Assembly: GCA_016200325.1 (NCBI GenBank)
Contig: JACQEZ010000003.1
Coordinates: 1 to 64,000 of the forward strand
Direction: 5' to 3'
DNA: 64,000 nucleotides
Source of the DNA: Candidatus Manganitrophaceae bacterium
GTDB taxonomy: Bacteria; Nitrospirota; Nitrospiria; SBBL01; Manganitrophaceae
Below are positions 53,177 to 63,500 of this stretch, piece after piece (position 1 is the stretch's first letter; each line of letters begins with the position of its first letter). Both the position numbers and the translations under genes were made by a program. Below the pieces are notes generated by a model. It was not told where the DNA came from. It was given only the letters and a program-made list of their open reading frames with translations, and did no database searches.

Positions 53177-53518
53177 TCAGCGATCGCCGGAAGGGGAGGA
53201 AAAGTGCTCCACGCGGCTCACCGACACATCCGAGACAAACATCACCCCGGTATATCGATCGAAGAGCGGTTTTAAGCCGGCCAAGACCGGCTTAACCTTC
53301 TCCGGCGGAACCACCGTCATCAACATCACCAGGCTGTCCATCTCATTAAACATCGGATGGGCGGTGTGGAAGCCGTGATTTCCTTTTCCTGAAATGTTGT
53401 GGATGATCGTGTAGCCGGTCGCCTTCACGCTGTCGAGAAGATCGGTCACAAACTTCACATGTTCGCCCTGGATCACAATTCGGATTTCTTTCATCGGATG
53501 AAGGGTAAGGCTGTTCAT
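53177..53518 (-). CDS. PII-like signalling protein of the dab operon
   Basis: 113 residues, ATG at 53518 with AGGAG seven bases upstream. The ferredoxin-like PII pattern is visible: MKEIRIVIQGEHVKFVTDLL DSVKATGYTIIHNISGKGN, a short T-loop region (GNHGFHTAHPMFNEMDSLVM), and VVPPEKVKPVLAGLKPLFDR YTGVMFVSDV. Such PII-like proteins occur next to dabA/dabB and bicarbonate transporters and are thought to sense nucleotide or carbon status. It is the last gene of dabB-dabA-PII, 31 bases after dabA. The typical Tyr51 uridylylation site is absent. Confidence 0.8.
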   Translation of the reverse strand: MNSLTLHPMKEIRIVIQGEHVKFVTDLLDSVKATGYTIIHNISGKGNHGFHTAHPMFNEMDSLVMLMTVVPPEKVKPVLAGLKPLFDRYTGVMFVSDVSVSRVEHFSSPSGDR

Positions 53519-53549: not shown

Positions 53550-54419
53550 TTAAGAGGCCACCGATACGTTGATCGGATTCAGGTCGGTCTTCTCCCCCAG
53601 AACGGGGACCCACCCCCGCTTCGGAAGATAAAGGTAGAAGCGCTTCTCCTCCGGGTCGAGGGCGATCAGACGGACCCATTCATTGTCGAAATAATGCTGG
53701 AGAATCTTATGGCGACGGATGATCTGGCCGATCTGCTCCCGTGAGCCTTCGATCAGACTCAGCATCCGGATCGGCTCATGATACGGCTGCTCCCCCTTTA
53801 ATACCGTCTGCGCGGCAAGCCCGACCCGCAGATCGCTCTGGGGTCCCGACATGACGCCGAGCCGGCCGACGACGTTATGATAGATCTTGCTTCCGCTGCC
53901 GTAGATCTCGTTATCGACCGTCGAGAAATAGTGCTCCATGTTGATCCATTGGCCGACCACCAGCGGGCCGGTCATCAGAATCTCCAGCAGCCGGCCGCTG
54001 GGATCTTCGCGGGGATCGTAGGACTGGAGAAAAACCCGCCCCTCTAAATCAATCTTTCGGGTCAGCTCGCGTCGGCCAATAATAAACGCCGCGTTACCCG
54101 ACAATCCCCACTCCGGCCGGACCTGGCTCCAGTCGCCGCTGCGGCGATGGACCTCCCGGGCCGATTGCGCCCGCGGCAAGAGCGATTCGATCTCCGGGAA
54201 GCGGGCGCAGCGCTCCCGGCTGTTTCGGAGGCCGGCCTCCTCCAGATCATCCATCAGCCGATGGAGATCCATTCGGTGGGTCTGAGGCAGGTCCTCCAGA
54301 TCGACGAGCTCGATCTCGTCGGTGGTGGTGTTGTGCTCTCCGGCGATGAAATAGGTATCGGCCGGAATCACAATCCCGTTTTTGGCGAGCCCCTCCCGGA
54401 CGAGCGGCCGATTCGCCAT
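53550..54419 (-). CDS. dabA: DabA C-terminal part (after a frameshift)
   Basis: The frame that ends at 53550 carries the C-terminal part of DabA. It can be read upstream past the ATG at 54419 to about 54550 as FARLVLLCGHGSASENNPFE AALDCGACGGNSGKPNARVF. It contains the second pair of zinc ligands (His in CGHGS and Cys in DCGACGG) and the typical end (TTDEIELVDLEDLP; ...IYHNVVGRLGVMSGPQSDLR VGL). Translation from the internal ATG at 54419 would lack these ligands. Together with the upstream frame it makes one gene of about 1140 codons, 53550-56974. Confidence 0.85.
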   Translation of the reverse strand: MANRPLVREGLAKNGIVIPADTYFIAGEHNTTTDEIELVDLEDLPQTHRMDLHRLMDDLEEAGLRNSRERCARFPEIESLLPRAQSAREVHRRSGDWSQVRPEWGLSGNAAFIIGRRELTRKIDLEGRVFLQSYDPREDPSGRLLEILMTGPLVVGQWINMEHYFSTVDNEIYGSGSKIYHNVVGRLGVMSGPQSDLRVGLAAQTVLKGEQPYHEPIRMLSLIEGSREQIGQIIRRHKILQHYFDNEWVRLIALDPEEKRFYLYLPKRGWVPVLGEKTDLNPINVSVAS

Positions 54420-56974
54420 CGCCGCGAAGACCCGCGCGTTCGGTTTTCCCGAGTTGCCGCCGCAGGCGCCGCAGTCGAGCGCCGCCTCGAACGGATTGTT
54501 CTCCGACGCGCTCCCATGACCGCAGAGGAGGACCAGCCGGGCGAAGTTTCGGTCAGCCCCATCAATCGCAACGCCGTCTCCACGGTGAAGAGCTGCTCTT
54601 GAAGGGTGAAGCCGGTCCGGGTAATCCGCTCCATCCGCGCGAAAAGCCCGCGCCGGTTGATCTGGTAGCGGGTGCGGAGCGTTTCGATGAAGGCGTTCTC
54701 CTCTTCAGCCGAGAGGGCATAGCGACGGGGGGGGGCTGCCGTCGGCGGCATTGGATCGGTTTCATCCAGGGCCCGGCGGCGCAACGCCTCGAGCCGCTCG
54801 AGGGAAAGGTTTAGATCGCGCTCACCGAACTCCTGCTGCAGCGCCCGGCGGATAATGCCGCGCTGTTCGGCGGCGATCATCTCCTCGACCTCCTTCCGGG
54901 TCAGCTTGTCGATCGTCAGAGAGGTCGCGATGGCGGGGGCGAGGGCATGCCGAAGGCGTTCGGTCAGGTTCCGATACCAGGCGGTAAAGACGGTCTTCCC
55001 GATGAGCGGCAACGCATAAAACCAGCCGACCGATTCGACCACGACATACGGGGTGACCACATTTTCCTTCAGATCGACCAAGAGCTGATGCGCTGTATGG
55101 AGGAGATGGTTCCCCGAGAGATAACGGGAGAGGCGCCGCCCCTGATAAGGCCGGTGGAGCTCCCGGACCAGATTTTTCGCCTTCATGATCACCGGGAACT
55201 GATCGGTCTCATGATGGCTTCCAAGCCCTTGGTAGCGGATGAAGACGGTGAAGAACCCGGCAAAGCCGAACGTCTCATAATCGCCGACCCCTTCCAACTG
55301 CCGCCGGAACGGCTCAGAGCGGACATCGATACAAAAGACCGCTTGGGCCTGGGGGCGGATCATCAAAGGGGCTTGCGTCGCCGGCGATTCAATGGGGTGG
55401 CCCGCGCGGTTCGCTTTTGGCGAATCCTCCGATGCCCCCACACCCCGCGCTCCGACGGGCAGAGCCCGATCCTCGCTGACCGACGAAGCCGCATGCGCCT
55501 CCCCCTCGGCGCTCGCGTTCGCTCGCGGGCTTAAGATTTCCGACGCCATCAGCTTGTTCAAGAGCTGATCTTGGTAGCCGGCTTCGAGCGCTTTTAACCA
55601 GACCGGTCCCTGTTCCGATTCGGGGAAGGCGTCAATCCAATCGAGCAGCGTCTTTAGGGCCTCCGGCGGCGTTTCCAGGAGGGAGGCCGGATCAATCGCG
55701 AGGGCGTTCGTGAGGGTTCGCAGGCGCAAGGCGGCCGCGCGCCGGACCGCGAGGTCATGGCCGGCGCCGTATTCCGCGGCATACGCTTCGGCGAGGCGCT
55801 CCCACTGATCTTCTTGCATCTCCGGGGCGCCGCCGGCCGCGCGCAGCCGATCGACCTTCTCGGTATAGTCGGCCGGCAGACGGCCGGCGACCCGCGCCCG
55901 CCGGAGAAAATAGGCCCCCGGCCGGCGTTGCAGGTAGGCCGAGAGGGCGTCGACCGTCCCGGCGATTCCCAATTCCTCCCGGCACTGTATCTCAACCAGT
56001 TCCCGGACATACCAGAGGCGGACGGCGAGGTATTGCGTCAGGTCGGCCGGATAAGCCTGCTGCCATTCATAATCGGCCTGATCGGCGCGCCATTTGATGA
56101 ACCCGGTCCAACCCGGCAGCGCCGCCAGGTGCAGCGTGAGGTACTCCTGCCAACTCTCCGACGGGATGCCGAGGGCGGTCAAGCTCTCGAGCAACGCATC
56201 TTCCGGCTCCTCCGGGAGAGCGGCGATCTTCCGGCGGGCGTCCGGAATTTCGCAGGGGGACCATTCCATCGCGGCGAGCGTTTTCCAGGCAAGATAGAAT
56301 CCCTTCTCCCGGCCCGGCATCGGCCAGGCGGCCTGGCCTTCATCCAAAAAGGCGCCGCACCATTTGACGATCTCTCCGTTGATCTGCTCCGTAATCCCGC
56401 CGCCCAAAACACGGTCGCACCAGGTCGACGGGGTCACCCGCAGCACCAACGCCGCCCGGTCGGCCTCGGCCTCAGCCCGCATCGCTTCGAGAAGCGATGG
56501 CGGCTTCAGCACGGCGCTCAGACGGCCGGCCAGCGCATCGATGAAAGATCGGTCCGAGGAGCGGTCGATCATCAAATGGAGGGTCTCTTCCTCCGGAATG
56601 GCGGCCCCGCCGATTCCATCGACCAAACAGGCGCGCAGCACCTGCGCATGGCTAAGATGATATTGCCCGACCGCCACCTGTTGGTCGCGGGTCGACGGTT
56701 TCAAGGCGGCGTCGATCTGTTGCGGAAGAATCCGGCCGGCGCGGAGATATTCCCGATAGCGCTCGGCGGCAAGATATCCTTTCCCACCGAGGAACTGATT
56801 GCCGAGTTCGACCGCCTCTTCAAAGGGGAGATGCTCCAGGCCGTGGAGCGGATTGTGATGGACAAAGTTCCGCATCGGCCAATAATGCGCGATGACCTCG
56901 CTGGAGAGCCGAATCAGCCCGCGGAGGCGCATCCGGTCGGTATCGCTGTAAGGTGTCTCTTTTATTTTTTCCAT
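54368..56974 (-). CDS. dabA: DabA (DUF2309) inorganic-carbon pump subunit, N-terminal part, frameshifted
   Basis: The gene starts at ATG 56974 (weak AGG upstream). It encodes the beta-carbonic-anhydrase-like subunit of the DAB bicarbonate transport complex. The family start YWPMRNFVHHNPLHGLEHLP FE and the zinc ligand pair C548-x-D550 in FCIDVRSEPFRRQL are present. Near 54545 one T seems missing: the frame changes from LRLMGLTET to an unrelated tail ending at 54368, while the next frame continues with FARLVLLCGHGS. A foreign-looking in-frame repeat occupies residues about 484-538, ten residues before C548. dabB lies 49 bases upstream and the PII-like gene downstream. Confidence 0.88.
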   Translation of the reverse strand: MEKIKETPYSDTDRMRLRGLIRLSSEVIAHYWPMRNFVHHNPLHGLEHLPFEEAVELGNQFLGGKGYLAAERYREYLRAGRILPQQIDAALKPSTRDQQVAVGQYHLSHAQVLRACLVDGIGGAAIPEEETLHLMIDRSSDRSFIDALAGRLSAVLKPPSLLEAMRAEAEADRAALVLRVTPSTWCDRVLGGGITEQINGEIVKWCGAFLDEGQAAWPMPGREKGFYLAWKTLAAMEWSPCEIPDARRKIAALPEEPEDALLESLTALGIPSESWQEYLTLHLAALPGWTGFIKWRADQADYEWQQAYPADLTQYLAVRLWYVRELVEIQCREELGIAGTVDALSAYLQRRPGAYFLRRARVAGRLPADYTEKVDRLRAAGGAPEMQEDQWERLAEAYAAEYGAGHDLAVRRAAALRLRTLTNALAIDPASLLETPPEALKTLLDWIDAFPESEQGPVWLKALEAGYQDQLLNKLMASEILSPRANASAEGEAHAASSVSEDRALPVGARGVGASEDSPKANRAGHPIESPATQAPLMIRPQAQAVFCIDVRSEPFRRQLEGVGDYETFGFAGFFTVFIRYQGLGSHHETDQFPVIMKAKNLVRELHRPYQGRRLSRYLSGNHLLHTAHQLLVDLKENVVTPYVVVESVGWFYALPLIGKTVFTAWYRNLTERLRHALAPAIATSLTIDKLTRKEVEEMIAAEQRGIIRRALQQEFGERDLNLSLERLEALRRRALDETDPMPPTAAPPRRYALSAEEENAFIETLRTRYQINRRGLFARMERITRTGFTLQEQLFTVETALRLMGLTETSPGWSSSAVMGARRRTIRSRRRSTAAPAAATRENRTRGSSRRWRIGRSSGRGSPKTGL
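55366..55532 (-). repeat. In-frame coding repeat, copy 1 (inside dabA)
   Basis: About 167 bp encoding ANASAEGEAHAASSVSEDRA, LPVGARGVGASEDSPKANRA and GHPIESPATQAPLM. Its head (CGCGAGCGCCGAGGGGGAGG C) and tail (GGCGACGCAAGCCCC) match copies 2 and 3 in dabB. It splits DabA just before the conserved RPQAQAVFCID segment, without disturbing the frame. Confidence 0.88.
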
Positions 56975-57023: not shown

Positions 57024-59933
57024 TTATTTATAGGGGGCTCGCGTCGCCCCCTCATCCGATAAGATCGGATGAGCCTCCCCTTCAACGCTCGCGGTTGCTC
57101 GCTGGGCTCTATTCATAGGGGTTTGCGTCGGCGACGATTCAATGTGGAGGCCCGTGCGGTTCGCCTTCGGTGAATCCTCCGATGCCCCCACGCCCCGCGC
57201 TTGCACCGGCAAAGCCGATTGCTCGCGTCCCTGCTCTGCAGAGAGTGCCTCCCCCTCGGCGCTCGCGGTGCTCGTTGGATTGTCGAGGGAGATTGTCGTC
57301 GTGCGATCCAGGTTTATGGCCGCGTTGATCTCGGTAGCGGGTGGCGGGGGTAGCGTCTCCGCCGGCCGGGTTGTTTCAAAGAAGCCATACGGGGCGAGGC
57401 CGAGGATTAGGAGAAGCAGCAGGGCGGTCGCCAGCGAGGCGGTCTCGGCGCGGGAGAGATCGGTGTAGGGGATTCCCGGGCGGTGCGGTCCGAAGAGGAG
57501 GCGCTGCATCAGGTTGAGGAAGAACCACGAGGCCGCCAGCCAAGTTAGCAGGATCACGGCGAGGTCCCACGACATCGGGACCGACCGGTTGAACAGCAGC
57601 TCGATCAACCCTGAAAAAAGTCCGAAGGGGGGAAGGCCCATCGCGGCGGTCACCAGGAGCGAGAGTAAGAGGGCGAAGCGGGGCATCGGCCGCGCCAGCC
57701 CGCCGATCCGGTTCAGATCGAGATTTCCGTAACGGAGCTGGACGACCCGCCAGGCGAGGAAAAGCCCGCCGGTGATGAGCGAGAGGGCGCTGACATAGAC
57801 CGCCGCCTGCGGCGTGTCGGCCGCCGCGCCGGCGAGATACCACCAGAGAATTGACGCGAAGGCGACGCCGGCGTAGGCGATCAGCCGCTCGACCCTAAAT
57901 TGCGCCAGCGCCTTGATCGTTCCATAGACGGCGCCGAACAGGGCGAGCGCGCGGACGGCGCCGAGCAGCTCCGGCGACATCCCCGAAAGAAGCCCCTGGA
58001 TTGCATAGAATCCGGCTATCGGCATCAAGACGGCGAGGAGCGCCGGGAAGACGCCGGTCAGCCGGGTCAGCGCCGTCACATAAAGCCATTGCAGCGGAAA
58101 GAGCGGCAGGAGGAGGGCGGCCATCGAAAAGAGGACGATGCTTGTGAAGGAGAGCTCACCAGCGCGATCGGCGGCCGGGAAGAGCCGGACCAACGCCACC
58201 ACCAGCGCGACTCCGGCCCAGATCCATCGGAGCGGGCTTTGATCGATCCGGCGCACCCGATTGGTCAGTCCGCGTCCGAGTCGGGCATAGAGCGCCTCGA
58301 GATAAAGCCGGTTCATGAAAAGGATGTAGAGACGGACCTGAAGCGCCTTGGCTGCTTTCGGCACCGGGATCGTTCGGCCGTGGCTCCTCGCGTAGATCAC
58401 ACTCCAGCCGGAGATGATCCCGAGCGCGATCGCCACCACCAGGGTGTCGAAGAGCCACGCCGGCAGGTGGGCCGCCTGAAAGTAGGCGAGCGCTTCGCCC
58501 GGGGCGGGATAAAGAAAGTCGGTGAACCGCTCCGCCGCGAAGAGGTAGGTCACCACGACCAACAACAGGGTGAAGAGCATGATCGACGCCACCTTCCACG
58601 AGGAGACCGCCCGCAACCGGTAGAGGGTGAGGATCGCCTGGGACGAGGTGACCCAGCTGAAGAAGAGAAAGATCACCGCCCCCTGTGAATCGATCAGCGG
58701 GATTCTGAGCGCCCCATGCGCCGCGAGTAAGATGATCAACGGGAAGAGCAGCGTAATCAGAAAGCCCGCCCCCCAGGTCAGCCCGGAGAACTCCTCTTCC
58801 GGTTCGGTCACTTCCTCCGGGTGGTCATGGGGTGGATGTCTCGGCTCTTGCCGGGCGGCATGGATGACATGGCCGCTGTCCAAGAAGACGGTCGCCTTGA
58901 AGAGGCCGTGCGCGATCAGGTGGAAGATCGCCAGCGCGAAGCCGCCGAGCCCGCACTCCATGATCATGTAGCCCATCTGCCCGATGGTGGAGTGGGCCAG
59001 TGTTTTTTTGATGTCGTTCTGCGTCAGCATCATCGTCGCCCCGAGCAGGGTGGTGAGGAGCCCGATCGCCAAGGCGAAATGGAGGGTGGCGGGGCTCTGG
59101 CCGTAGAGCGGGGCGAGCCGGTTCAAAAGAAAGCCGCCGGCATTGATGATCCCGGCATGGAGCAGGGCGGTCACCGGGGTCGGGGCATAGAGGTTTCCCG
59201 GCAGCCAGATGTGCATCGGAAACTGGACCGACTTGCTCATCGCGCCGACGAAGATCAGCAGGGTAATCAAGGTCGGCGCGCCGATCGACCACCCGGGCCA
59301 GAGCGAAAAGCGCTCCGGCGTCTGGGCGGCGGCATTGATAAAGAGCTGCGGAAAGTCGAGCGTGCCGTAAACGCGGTAGGCGAGGACGACCCCGGCCAAG
59401 AAGGCGACATCGCCGATCCGGAGGGTGGTGTAGGTCTTCGTCGCCCCCTGGAGCGTCTGGGGGTGGCTATAGTGGTGCGAGAGGAGGTAGAGCATCCAGC
59501 TGATCAGCTGCCAGAAGATAAAGAGCATCATGAGGTTTTTGCTGGCGACCATGGAAAGGAGGATGAAGATCAGCAGGGCCAACAGCGTGTGGAACCGGGT
59601 CCGCCCCCGCTCCTGTTGCATGTAGGAGACGGAGAAGAGGGAGATGAGAAAGCCGATGGCGCTGACGAGCGTCAGCATGACGGCGGCGAGGCGGTCGATG
59701 TAGAGGCCGAACTGCAGCGCGCCGCCCCAGGCGGAGGAGAAGATCGGGACGTCGATCGGACCGTTCCCGGCGACTTGCTTGAGCGTCCAAAGAGAGACCG
59801 CGAGCGCCACGGCCTGCGCCGCGGCACTGATCCGATAGGCCTTCCGTCCGAGGGCCCCTTCCAGCAGGCCGTTGACTCCGGCCGCCGCGAGCGGCGCCAG
59901 CAGGATCAGCAATGGGTAGTAAGCGACCGTCAT
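57024..59933 (-). CDS. dabB: DabB (NuoL-like) proton-channel subunit with NuoM-like extension and repeat tail
   Basis: 969 residues, ATG at 59933 with GGAGG three bases upstream. The N-terminal ~560 residues are a Proton_antipo_M/NuoL-type membrane domain (LYIDRLAAVMLTLVSAIGFL, FVGAMSKSVQFPMHIWLPGN, APTPVTALLHAGIINAGGFL, GATMMLTQNDIKKTLAHSTI GQMGYM). After a linker a second NuoM/NuoN-like unit continues (ERLIAYAGVAFASILWWYLA, VTAAMGLPPFGLFSGLIELL). Usual DabB proteins are about 550 residues, so this is a fusion. The last 80 residues (from about 890) are two copies of an in-frame repeat also found in dabA. DabB and DabA together energise bicarbonate uptake. It heads the operon. Confidence 0.9.
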   Translation of the reverse strand: MTVAYYPLLILLAPLAAAGVNGLLEGALGRKAYRISAAAQAVALAVSLWTLKQVAGNGPIDVPIFSSAWGGALQFGLYIDRLAAVMLTLVSAIGFLISLFSVSYMQQERGRTRFHTLLALLIFILLSMVASKNLMMLFIFWQLISWMLYLLSHHYSHPQTLQGATKTYTTLRIGDVAFLAGVVLAYRVYGTLDFPQLFINAAAQTPERFSLWPGWSIGAPTLITLLIFVGAMSKSVQFPMHIWLPGNLYAPTPVTALLHAGIINAGGFLLNRLAPLYGQSPATLHFALAIGLLTTLLGATMMLTQNDIKKTLAHSTIGQMGYMIMECGLGGFALAIFHLIAHGLFKATVFLDSGHVIHAARQEPRHPPHDHPEEVTEPEEEFSGLTWGAGFLITLLFPLIILLAAHGALRIPLIDSQGAVIFLFFSWVTSSQAILTLYRLRAVSSWKVASIMLFTLLLVVVTYLFAAERFTDFLYPAPGEALAYFQAAHLPAWLFDTLVVAIALGIISGWSVIYARSHGRTIPVPKAAKALQVRLYILFMNRLYLEALYARLGRGLTNRVRRIDQSPLRWIWAGVALVVALVRLFPAADRAGELSFTSIVLFSMAALLLPLFPLQWLYVTALTRLTGVFPALLAVLMPIAGFYAIQGLLSGMSPELLGAVRALALFGAVYGTIKALAQFRVERLIAYAGVAFASILWWYLAGAAADTPQAAVYVSALSLITGGLFLAWRVVQLRYGNLDLNRIGGLARPMPRFALLLSLLVTAAMGLPPFGLFSGLIELLFNRSVPMSWDLAVILLTWLAASWFFLNLMQRLLFGPHRPGIPYTDLSRAETASLATALLLLLILGLAPYGFFETTRPAETLPPPPATEINAAINLDRTTTISLDNPTSTASAEGEALSAEQGREQSALPVQARGVGASEDSPKANRTGLHIESSPTQTPMNRAQRATASVEGEAHPILSDEGATRAPYK
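57031..57106 (-). repeat. In-frame coding repeat, copy 3 (short form, dabB 3' end)
   Basis: About 76 bp coding RATASVEGEAHPILSDEGAT RAPYK. It keeps the head and tail of the element but lacks the central SEDSPKANR part. A hairpin CTCATCCGA / TCGGATGAG (57051-57073) sits inside it. Confidence 0.7.
57117..57278 (-). repeat. In-frame coding repeat, copy 2 (dabB 3' part)
   Basis: About 162 bp coding ASAEGEALSAEQGREQSALP and VQARGVGASEDSPKANRTGL HIESSPTQTPM. The segment GAATCCTCCGATGCCCCCAC (+ strand) is identical to copy 1, and the flanking 26 bases differ at only a few positions. The middle (EQGREQS vs SSVSEDR) is the most divergent part. Confidence 0.88.
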
Positions 59934-60030: not shown

Positions 60031-60120
60031 TAAAATAAAAAAGCCGACCCAGTGAGAACATTGAGTCGGCTTATAGCCTGACCGATTCTGGGTTCAGAAT
60101 CCTTCAGGTTATCTCCCGCG
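60031..60120 (-). ncRNA. Candidate structured leader RNA / attenuator of dabB-dabA
   Basis: A roughly 90-nt transcript would start near 60120. It has hairpin 1 (CCTGA-AG-GATTCTG / CAGAATC-GG-TCAGG, 60077-60108 on the plus-strand scale) and an intrinsic terminator (AAGCCGAC / GTCGGCTT, 60041-60048 with 60065-60072, then TTTTTTATTTTA). dabB begins about 108 bases further. It could be an attenuator, a riboswitch or a small RNA. It matches no family I can name with confidence. Confidence 0.55.
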
Positions 60121-60127
60121 TAGGAAA

Positions 60128-60157
60128 ATTAAAAACCAGGTTGGTGCTCCAAGTCAA
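60128..60157 (-). promoter_or_regulatory. Candidate promoter for the dab leader
   Basis: On the minus strand TTGACT (60157-60152), an 18-base spacer and TTTAAT (60133-60128). Transcription would start near 60121, just before the CGCGGGAG that opens the structured leader. Confidence 0.6.
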
Positions 60158-60527: not shown

Positions 60528-63500
60528 TCATGTCTGTGTCTTGTCGGGCACGGAACTTCCCTCCGGCACAAAGAAGGGCTCCTCGGGCGGCCAAGATTGG
60601 CCGGATGCGAGATCGGGGTGACGTGGTTCACCCGTCGGCCTGCCATGCTCCAGACGCCATTCCTCGATTTGACCGAGAAGCATGAAGGCAGATCTTCGAC
60701 GTTTTCGGTCCTCAAGCGCCATCCTGAACAGCCGGACGCGCAGTTCGTTTGACGCGCGCGCGTGTTCCGTGAAGACGTTGGGACTTTGCCCATCGGGTCG
60801 TCGCTCGACGAAAGTGCTTTTGAGTTGGTCCCAAATGCCTTGCGGAACCGTCGAGGGCCTGGCGTCATTGATCAGGTTCAGATTTGCGACGAGGGCTTCG
60901 GGCGTTCCGAGCCGGTTCATGACTTTCGAGAGGACGTGCCGATTGAGTTCCGGCAAGTCGCGTTCGCATAACTCCCGCAGCCGCGCGGCTGCCTCCGGCC
61001 TGCGCTGGGCCAGCTCCGTGAGCCGTGCGACCAGCACGTCCTCGCGGTCGGGACCGCGCGTCAGCGCGATGCCGCGGATGTCTGGATCGACAAAACCCAG
61101 GAGCAGTTCGCGTGCACGCTGCGTGTCGAGTGCAGCGAAGGCATTTATGAAATTGTCCTCGCATTGCTCGAACGTCGGCGCATCGGACGCAAGCGCGTAC
61201 AGAAGATCGACGGCGGCATCCGAGCGGTTCTCGCCGAGAGCGGTGACGAGCTCGCGCAGTTCGTATCCCCGGAGCCGCCGCTTGTCGAGCACGTCCCGAA
61301 TCCTGGCGATCCCGGCCGCAGGATCATCGACGAATGGGCAGAGCGCGAGAATCCGGAGCAGAAGGTACTTGTCTGAATCCTGTATCCACTTCTCTGTCTG
61401 CCCGAGGATGGAATCAACCAGAGCGAACGCGGTGGTCGCGGGCAAGACGACACCCGCCATCAACAAGACCTCTGCGGCGCCGAGGCAGGAGTATTGGTCC
61501 CATTGGCCGGGCATGGCAATCACGTCGAGCACTACTGCCGCGGAACCGCGGCCGTCAATTGTGGCAAGCGCACTTGCGAGCCCTTTCAGGCCGATGGCGG
61601 GTTTCCTGCCTTGGCTCTGCTCTCGCAGGCGCTTGATTTCGGCATTCAGTGCGGCAGCAAATCGTGTGCGGCGCTGGTCGTCGGCGGGTGGCGGAACGTG
61701 ACCTTCTCGCGCGGCCCACATCAAGTTGTAGCGGAACGTACGATCAAAGGAGCGATCCGGCTTCGGCACGAAGTCGCGCGCCATCGCCGCCGCGGCGTCC
61801 GAGAGGTATTCCGGCTCGGGAAGCAGGTCAATGAGCACCTGCTCGGCGCCAGCCGGGTCGAGGTGCATGATGGAGGCGATGTGCCACCTTGCGTAGCTCA
61901 TGACGCCGCCATTGCCGAGAGGTCCACGGTCGCCGGCCGCGCGCGCGGCCCGGCCGCGGCGGACCCTCTCGATATCGGCGCGGATGAGCAACACCAGGTC
62001 CGCCATGTCTTCGGGTTTTCCGACCTGCGCAATCGACGAGGCCAAGTTGGCTTTCTCCTCGCCGTTGAAGTCATCTTGGCGGAGCACGAGATCGACACTG
62101 CTTTTTAGGTACGCGCGGAGCCGTGCCTTCAAGTCGTCGTCGCCAATGCGCAGCGGTTCCACGTCCGACCTGGCGACCCTGCTGAGAAGGTCCGCCGCTA
62201 CTTTGATGTCGAGGGGGTCGCCGCTCGTGACGGATGAGAGGACGCCGGCCGCGGCGACGTCATCGGGAAGACGGCGAAACAGGTCCTCCAGCTGTTTCAT
62301 CACCTGCCACTCGAATTCGTGCTGCTCGCCGGGTTCTGCATCTACCTTGCGCCGCAGCTCGCGCAGCTTCGCAAACACGCGCGCTGCGAGCTTTGCGTCC
62401 GCGCGCGCGGCGATCACCGCAATCATGCCCTCAAAGCGCGCGTTCTTGAAGTTTTCGGTCTCGAGGCGCTGCAGGTATTTTTCGACAAGGCCGTCGGGAA
62501 TGGCAGTCGCGAATGGCAACCAGTTCTCGGACCCGTAGATGACGCCTTCGGCAATCTGAATTACCACCCACTCGCTCGCCCAGGCCGGATCGGTTTTACG
62601 CAAATACTCGAGCGCCGGTTGAATGTAGTGTGAACCCAGGTTGCGCATGTCGCCGCCGGGCAGCGCCGCCAGCGCATCCTTGACGACGCCATCCAGGCCT
62701 GGCTCGCCAACCGCGATTAGATCGAGCGCAGTTCGCAGGCGGGCGGGATGGTCGGTGCTACTCTCAATGAATTTTCGCATCGCCGCGATAGTCTTGGGTA
62801 TGAGGGCCGCAGGCATGCGGTCGGCGTTTTTGCGCGCAACCTCCTCGAATGTCTGCGCATCCATTGACTCGAGGACGCGGATTAGCGCGTCGTCAGACCC
62901 AGTCCACATAAGGCCGGAGACCGCCGCCTTCTTAACCGCGACGCTGTTGTCCTCCTCAGCGAAGGCCGCAATCTCGCCATCGACACGATGATGAAGCAGT
63001 TCGGACACGAAATCCGCTCGTGCCTCTTCGCTCCAGCCGCGCACCTGCTCGCGCCAGCTCGATCCAAGCGACGAGAGTTGGATATCGGGCCAGAGCCGGT
63101 AGGTGCGCAGCCGCGTTTGGTTGTCTTGTCCCGATAGAAGCGGTAGGATGATGTCGCTGAAGTCGTTCGCACCGGTGGCGAGCATGGCGGCGAGGGCATA
63201 CTGCTGATACTTGCCGTCGCGGATTGCGTAGATGCCGCGCAAACGCTCGCCGACGGCCGCGCGAACTCCATTCCAGACGGCGGCGCCGCAAAGCTGCGCA
63301 AGCTCGCCGGCGAATACCGGGTCGACGAAGAGCGCCATCTCCACCAGCTTCCCGCCGGCTCGGGTGTTTCGCGTCTGGGTTTCGCTGTCGCCGGTCTGCT
63401 CGGCAAACGTCTCGGCAATCATGCGCAGCGGTTCGGCCCATGCCGGATCATTCAGGTAGTCGGCCATGAAGCGGCCGATCGCGTCGTGATCATCGTCTCG

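Follow-up and report, generated by a model that had tools for sequence, protein, structure and literature searches.

In ON-type transcriptional riboswitches, of which the pbuE adenine riboswitch is an example, one strand of the sensor domain's basal helix is also part of the terminator, so that the two cannot form together. The leader described here lies ahead of the dabB-dabA-PII genes of Candidatus Manganitrophus (Nitrospirota), and we propose for it the same principle, a basal helix and a terminator that share a strand and of which only one forms. It differs from the ON-type riboswitches in having a simple hairpin with two purine loops where these have a junction, and it has no Rfam match. 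By gene, the nearest described RNA is the icd-II motif, a candidate riboswitch before isocitrate dehydrogenase genes with a three-stem junction whose first stem takes in the ribosome-binding site, as set out in the relevant part of PMC8632094. The leader also stands ahead of isocitrate dehydrogenase genes, but it consists of a single hairpin plus terminator, precedes several carbon genes, is found in Nitrospirota and does not show the icd-II features given in that part of the source. ANTAR-responsive leaders resemble it in that a structure before the terminator blocks the terminator (here a proposal) and in that copies stand at several places of an operon; the ANTAR target, defined in the pertinent section of PMC3369931 as two small hairpins with six-base loops carrying A1 and G4, was not found in the leader members. 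Cyanobacterial uptake of inorganic carbon (Ci) is controlled, according to the portion of PMC10117731 that deals with it, by the transcription factors NdhR and CmpR, which sense 2-phosphoglycolate or 2-oxoglutarate, together with the PII-like SbtB. There, as is proposed here, sbtA and other Ci genes are under the control of carbon status; the agents are transcription factors and a PII-like protein in the one case and a leader RNA in the other.

Searches with Rfam 15 returned rRNA only for the window (the whole stretch of 64,000 nucleotides that was analysed) at the gathering threshold, one unrelated sub-threshold match for the leader region at E<=10, and tRNA only for 19 element loci at E<=1, the icd-type members being without a match. 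No earlier description of the leader was found in open-licence PMC papers (supplements excluded), and a mention elsewhere is possible. The leader family is probably new and undescribed, and a genetic switch for carbon supply.

The leader and its operon

On the minus strand, the leader sits between dabB and a NACHT/STAND-like gene (NCAB2 domain in Pfam). The separation of the operon from the STAND gene, which the sequence-only reading had noted, is seen in the positions: the upstream gene stops at 60528 and dabB starts at 59933. The features are collected in Table 1.

Table 1. Features of the leader and of the operon behind it, in window positions.
Feature	Position	Strand	Details
Leader element (promoter to U tract)	60157-60037	minus	Candidatus Manganitrophus, Nitrospirota; ahead of dabB-dabA-PII
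Promoter-like site	60128..60157	minus	-35 TTGACT 60157-60152, 18-nt spacer, -10 TTTAAT 60133-60128
5' tail of leader RNA	60113..60121	minus	conserved GGnAG 60117-60113; predicted start 60121
Proposed antiterminator helix P1a	60067..60118	minus	CGG 60118-60116 with CCG 60069-60067, across loop GAG/AAG
Long hairpin	60073..60112	minus	P1 60112-60104 with 60081-60073; P2 60101-60095 with 60090-60084
Intrinsic terminator	60037..60072	minus	stem 60072-60061 with 60052-60041; U tract 60042-60037
dabB, first gene behind leader	57024..59933	minus	Proton_antipo_M/N; ATG at 59933
dabA, two overlapping frames	53550..56974	minus	DabA PF10070 in both frames
PII-family gene	53177..53518	minus	P-II PF00543

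A sigma-70-like promoter on the minus strand had been predicted from the letters of the window, and its -35 and -10 elements are present as described; RNA would be expected to start near 60121. This promoter is absent from the output of a promoter scan of the window, which requires the second base of the -10 to be A (the leader has TTTAAT). The long hairpin with a purine internal loop is there as well (60112-60073), the loop being a 2x2 loop AG/GG (60103-60102, 60083-60082). Of the classic terminator that had been read 100 bases before dabB with an 8-bp stem, the terminator and its place hold (103 nt from the end of the U tract to the dabB ATG), but the stem, AAGCCGACUCAA / CUGGGUCGGCUU, has about 11 pairs, followed by six U. 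A simple terminator scan of the window does not list it, and the loop limit of 8 in that scan is the probable reason. The 158-nt leader RNA folds with -58.2 kcal/mol, compared with -38.4 (sd 4.09) in 200 shuffles (z -4.84), none of which is as stable (0/200).

The leader block is found ahead of dabB in 5/6 genomes of the genus Manganitrophus; the sixth, which is 72% complete, has neither the block nor a close dabB. Compared with the four other genomes that carry it, the block has 82-92% DNA identity and the flanks have diverged, the near-identical stretch running from ~10 nt upstream of the -35 through the U tract. The promoter-like site is kept in 5/5 members. Its 18-nt spacer (60134-60151) is almost invariant across the genus, beyond what a promoter needs, and may be overlapped by an operator. 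A degenerate leader pattern also matches CP114561.1, from Candidatus Manganitrophus sp. GAC4, and SCUR01000578.1, from a Manganitrophaceae bin. Plasmid sequences searched with the leader DNA gave no match.

Two further observations concern the operon genes. The Pfam DabA domain of the window falls into halves at 54368-56974 and 53550-54419, G001 and G002 having one match each; the split is a frameshift, either of the genome itself or of its assembly. A 155-nt repeat with 79% identical copies at 55363-55517 (in frame within dabA) and 57113-57267 (near the dabB end) has 13 matching places in its own genome, 11 of these being the 34-77-nt core only, and looks like a mobile repeat entering genes.

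Distribution and gene context in Nitrospirota

Covariance models were built from the five Manganitrophus sequences only (R1), from 17 sequences (R2) and from 24 sequences (R3) and were used in searches that covered Nitrospirota; their E-values are rough, the calibrations being short, and those that R3 gives to sequences it was trained on are not independent; R1 was trained on Manganitrophus alone. In 395 genomes of the phylum R1 gives 14 matches at E<=0.05, of which 12 are at E<=2.3e-5, the window's own genome and 11 others. After model iteration with R2 and R3 the element is found in 15/269 genomes of the class at E<1e-6; it is also found in 2/21 genomes of the class of G024 (two copies each) and in 4/10 of the class of G022, and R3 finds it in 17/395 genomes of the phylum sample at E<=1e-6 (21 matches). 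With the four other Manganitrophus genomes and G500 the family comprises 26 elements in 22 genomes from 12 families of Nitrospirota. The sequence-only reading had proposed a covariance search among related genomes: the element reaches far beyond close relatives, and within these the hairpins are conserved. DabA is encoded by 229/269 genomes of the class, the majority of which lack the element, so that the phylum has other solutions besides this leader.

The E-values of the R3 phylum search leave a gap from 1e-6 to 8.8e-4. Nine weak matches past the gap (E 8.8e-4 to 7.8e-3) were kept as controls, and eight of them are unrelated terminators, two behind a 5S-like and one behind a tRNA-like sequence (by eye). 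The weak match in G367 (L114 1501-1589, E 9.9e-4) lies upstream of a dabB-like gene, in a family that otherwise lacks the element; behind it, on the opposite strand, are genes for MpsC and carbonic anhydrase. It is perhaps a degenerate or diverged copy; it is included in the 27-row alignment A7 and stands outside the 26 counted elements. The R2 matches in G106 and G415 and the R1 match in G340 are unrelated to the family.

Each of the 26 elements is immediately followed by an inorganic-carbon or reductive-TCA gene. The first gene is dabB in 15 cases (5 Manganitrophus, G365, G188, G024b, G071b, G235, G373, G500, G124, G168 and G275), mpsC in two (G024a, G071a) and sbtA in another two (G162, then a PII gene; G164, then an isocitrate-dehydrogenase-like gene). 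Monomeric isocitrate dehydrogenase follows five elements (G064, G022:C31, G047 and, in G031, a tandem pair, there with genes carrying ATP-citrate-lyase domains downstream of it), carbonic anhydrase and then mpsC follow one (G022:C20, directly after the end of an icd gene), and an ATP-citrate-lyase-like gene follows one (G039). The genes were called by blastp to window proteins, by Pfam and by reading of the encoded starts. The calls in G047 and G022:C31, whose starts are cut by contig ends, rest on comparison by eye with other icd genes, that in G500 on a truncated gene that matches Proton_antipo_N, and that of G124, where the dabB frame is broken, on its position ahead of dabA; the carbonic anhydrase match of G022:C20 is weak (1.7e-6, just above the cut-off). 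No dabA lies behind dabB in G188, and none was found in that genome. A spread over several unrelated genes is not explicable by shared ancestry of one operon.

The gene mpsC (PF10057) adjoins the element, up- or downstream, at L049, L050, L051, L052, L057, L105 and L121 and could belong to the same response. At four loci (G373, G124, G164 and G039; L053, L055, L057 and L059) a second terminator-like hairpin lies between element and gene, preceded by a common GGAGGG-like stretch (by eye).

TTGAC lies 34-43 nt upstream of the element in 21/26 members. The exceptions are G024b, G071b, G022:C20, the second tandem copy in G031 and G188, and 4/5 of these promoterless copies are interior or tandem: G024b and G071b sit between mpsC and dabB, and G022:C20 between icd and carbonic anhydrase. 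At L104 (7765-7970) two elements stand back to back before isocitrate dehydrogenase, the second promoterless and of different sequence; tandem switches can sharpen a response.

This arrangement bears on whether the leader might be a free-standing small RNA (about 85 nt) while a separate promoter further down drives dabB, the other layout that had been considered at the outset. A promoter-like match (9/12) does occur at 60016-59987 in the window and also in G003, but the site is not seen by eye in three other genus members. In several members only 18-40 nt separate the U tract from the start codon (18-32 nt in G235, G168, G064, G047, G162 and G275), which leaves no room for a second promoter; as the layout reads, expression of such genes must cross the terminator unless a promoter overlaps it. 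This spacing and the promoterless interior and tandem copies disfavour a small RNA, as does the constant position in front of carbon genes that belong to several unrelated types; judged from sequence, the leader would not fit a small-RNA gene, defined by an independent transcript and by an own promoter for the next gene. We consider this reading very unlikely. The carbon-related genes behind 26/26 elements favour attenuation in cis and, together with the covariance search, lend support to the attenuator or riboswitch layout first suggested. The leader is very likely cis-regulatory, and it is probably a cis-acting transcription attenuator of a new RNA family.

Covariation and candidate antiterminators

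Among the 27 aligned members, changes on both sides are seen at 24/28 pairs of hairpin P1/P2 and terminator (112 cells), a count that is biased towards the structure, the members being related and the alignment fitted to the model; none of 500 shuffles reaches it, and slid structures score 7 to 11 pairs. All pairs of the long hairpin (16/16) and 8/12 pairs of the terminator have such changes. The 17-sequence alignment has them at 14/28 pairs (0/500 shuffles) and the 5-sequence genus alignment at 1/28, no better than shuffles. The P2 loop varies in sequence and has lengths between 3 and about 19 nt. In the 5' tail, alignment columns 7 and 10 are G in 27/27 members.

When the members are folded without the 3' arm of the terminator, P1 is extended across an NAG/AAG loop by the pairs G6-C73 and G7-C72 and often by C5-G75. 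The resulting helix P1a occupies the foot of the terminator, and the two are mutually exclusive. The exact pair 7-72 is present in 24/27 folds, compared with 211/1620 (13%) with shuffled tails, and 1/500 shuffles scores as high as P1a in covariation. The foot, columns 69-73, is almost invariant and columns 75-81 are variable; pair 5-75 is CG in 14, UG in 5 and UA in 4 of the 27. Such a foot occurs in 2/21 other terminator-like hairpins (the control set being without loci L106-L110, which came from weak model matches), a comparison that is partly circular in that the models select for the foot. P1a is short, only 59% of its cells are paired, and lax pairing of tail and foot is also seen in 831/1080 tail shuffles. 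With moderate confidence, P1a (GG with CC) would be the likely antiterminator, competing for the terminator foot; given a cis-regulatory leader, a switch between terminator and P1a is probable.

A different antiterminator, in which the 3' arm of P1 (GGUC..) pairs with the 5' arm of the terminator (GACU), can be drawn in 5/5 genus sequences and in 93.4% of cells in 17 sequences. These 17 sequences contain no compensatory change for it, however, the pairing is weak in icd-type members, and duplex energies of own arms equal those of crossed arms (-7.49 vs -7.47, permutation 0.45) in the 23/27 rows used, the four other Manganitrophus rows being left out. With no covariation and own pairs no better than crossed ones it was rejected as a general mechanism, and there is little chance that it is the antiterminator. 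A 5' hairpin CGGG/CCYG, 72% paired, is no better than shuffles and was also dropped.

In 27/27 full-length folds the terminator state is favoured, by 0.6 to 17 kcal/mol, and a signal must therefore act during transcription. The same stability would suit a leader with no sensing role, made up of an ordinary promoter and a constitutive terminator, whose effect would be only to reduce expression or to insulate the operon. An insulator, however, needs neither a conserved upstream hairpin nor an invariant 5' tail and foot, nor a restriction to carbon genes, and we regard it as improbable.

Proposed mechanism and signal

The predicted fold, the terminator, the gene association and the cis arrangement are supported by the comparisons above; that the RNA switches between two structures, that the signal turns it ON and that there is a signal at all, we infer. 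In the attenuator that we propose, transcription would start ~10 nt upstream of the long hairpin, which would form on the emerging RNA and have its base lengthened by GG:CC(G) pairs across the purine loop (NAG/AAG). The extended hairpin would hold the 5' foot of the terminator, AAGCC. A signal that stabilises it, presumably a report of inorganic-carbon or CO2-fixation status, would keep the terminator from closing at the U tract and allow read-through into dabB-dabA-PII; without the signal the terminator would reclaim its foot and transcription would stop.

An intrinsic terminator ahead of the start codon, as in attenuators, is present, and a conserved structured RNA in the leaders of functionally related genes, as with riboswitches, is found. 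The most likely option for the signal, tentatively, is a small molecule bound directly by the RNA; the leader has few conserved unpaired bases for an aptamer. That paucity, the long hairpin and its purine internal loops would suit a protein site, and an RNA-binding protein could hold the extended hairpin and block the terminator in the manner of ANTAR or BglG/SacY proteins. MpsC is a candidate, its gene adjoining many elements, but RNA binding by MpsC is a guess only, and the dual hairpin of ANTAR targets is absent. A protein of this kind is possible, although less likely than a small molecule as the signal.

If the genes behind the elements are wanted at low carbon, then with an ON layout the signal should be a sign of scarce carbon or of a carboxylase substrate that has backed up, not bicarbonate. 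For cyanobacteria, the part of PMC10117731 on these signals gives 2-phosphoglycolate as the sign of low CO2 and 2-oxoglutarate as that of high CO2, and Manganitrophaceae encode the reductive TCA cycle, as reported in the part of PMC9040806 concerned. In that cycle 2-oxoglutarate is a carboxylation substrate, so that its meaning could be reversed. A riboswitch that senses bicarbonate/CO2 or an immediate reporter, and that sets Dab, SbtA, MpsC, carbonic anhydrase and the reductive-TCA enzymes together, we rate as doubtful, because on that premise the stabilising signal should mark low carbon.

Carbon-supply sensing in autotrophs outside cyanobacteria is largely open. To our knowledge no RNA sensor of CO2 supply is known, and a riboswitch for inorganic carbon would, if true, be the first; the ligand is directly testable on the 90-nt RNA. 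If a single RNA element links the two unrelated transporters DabAB and SbtA with MpsC, carbonic anhydrase and enzymes of CO2 fixation, these would form a carbon regulon, membership of which is a functional hint for MpsC, and this regulon would span manganese oxidisers and other Nitrospirota.
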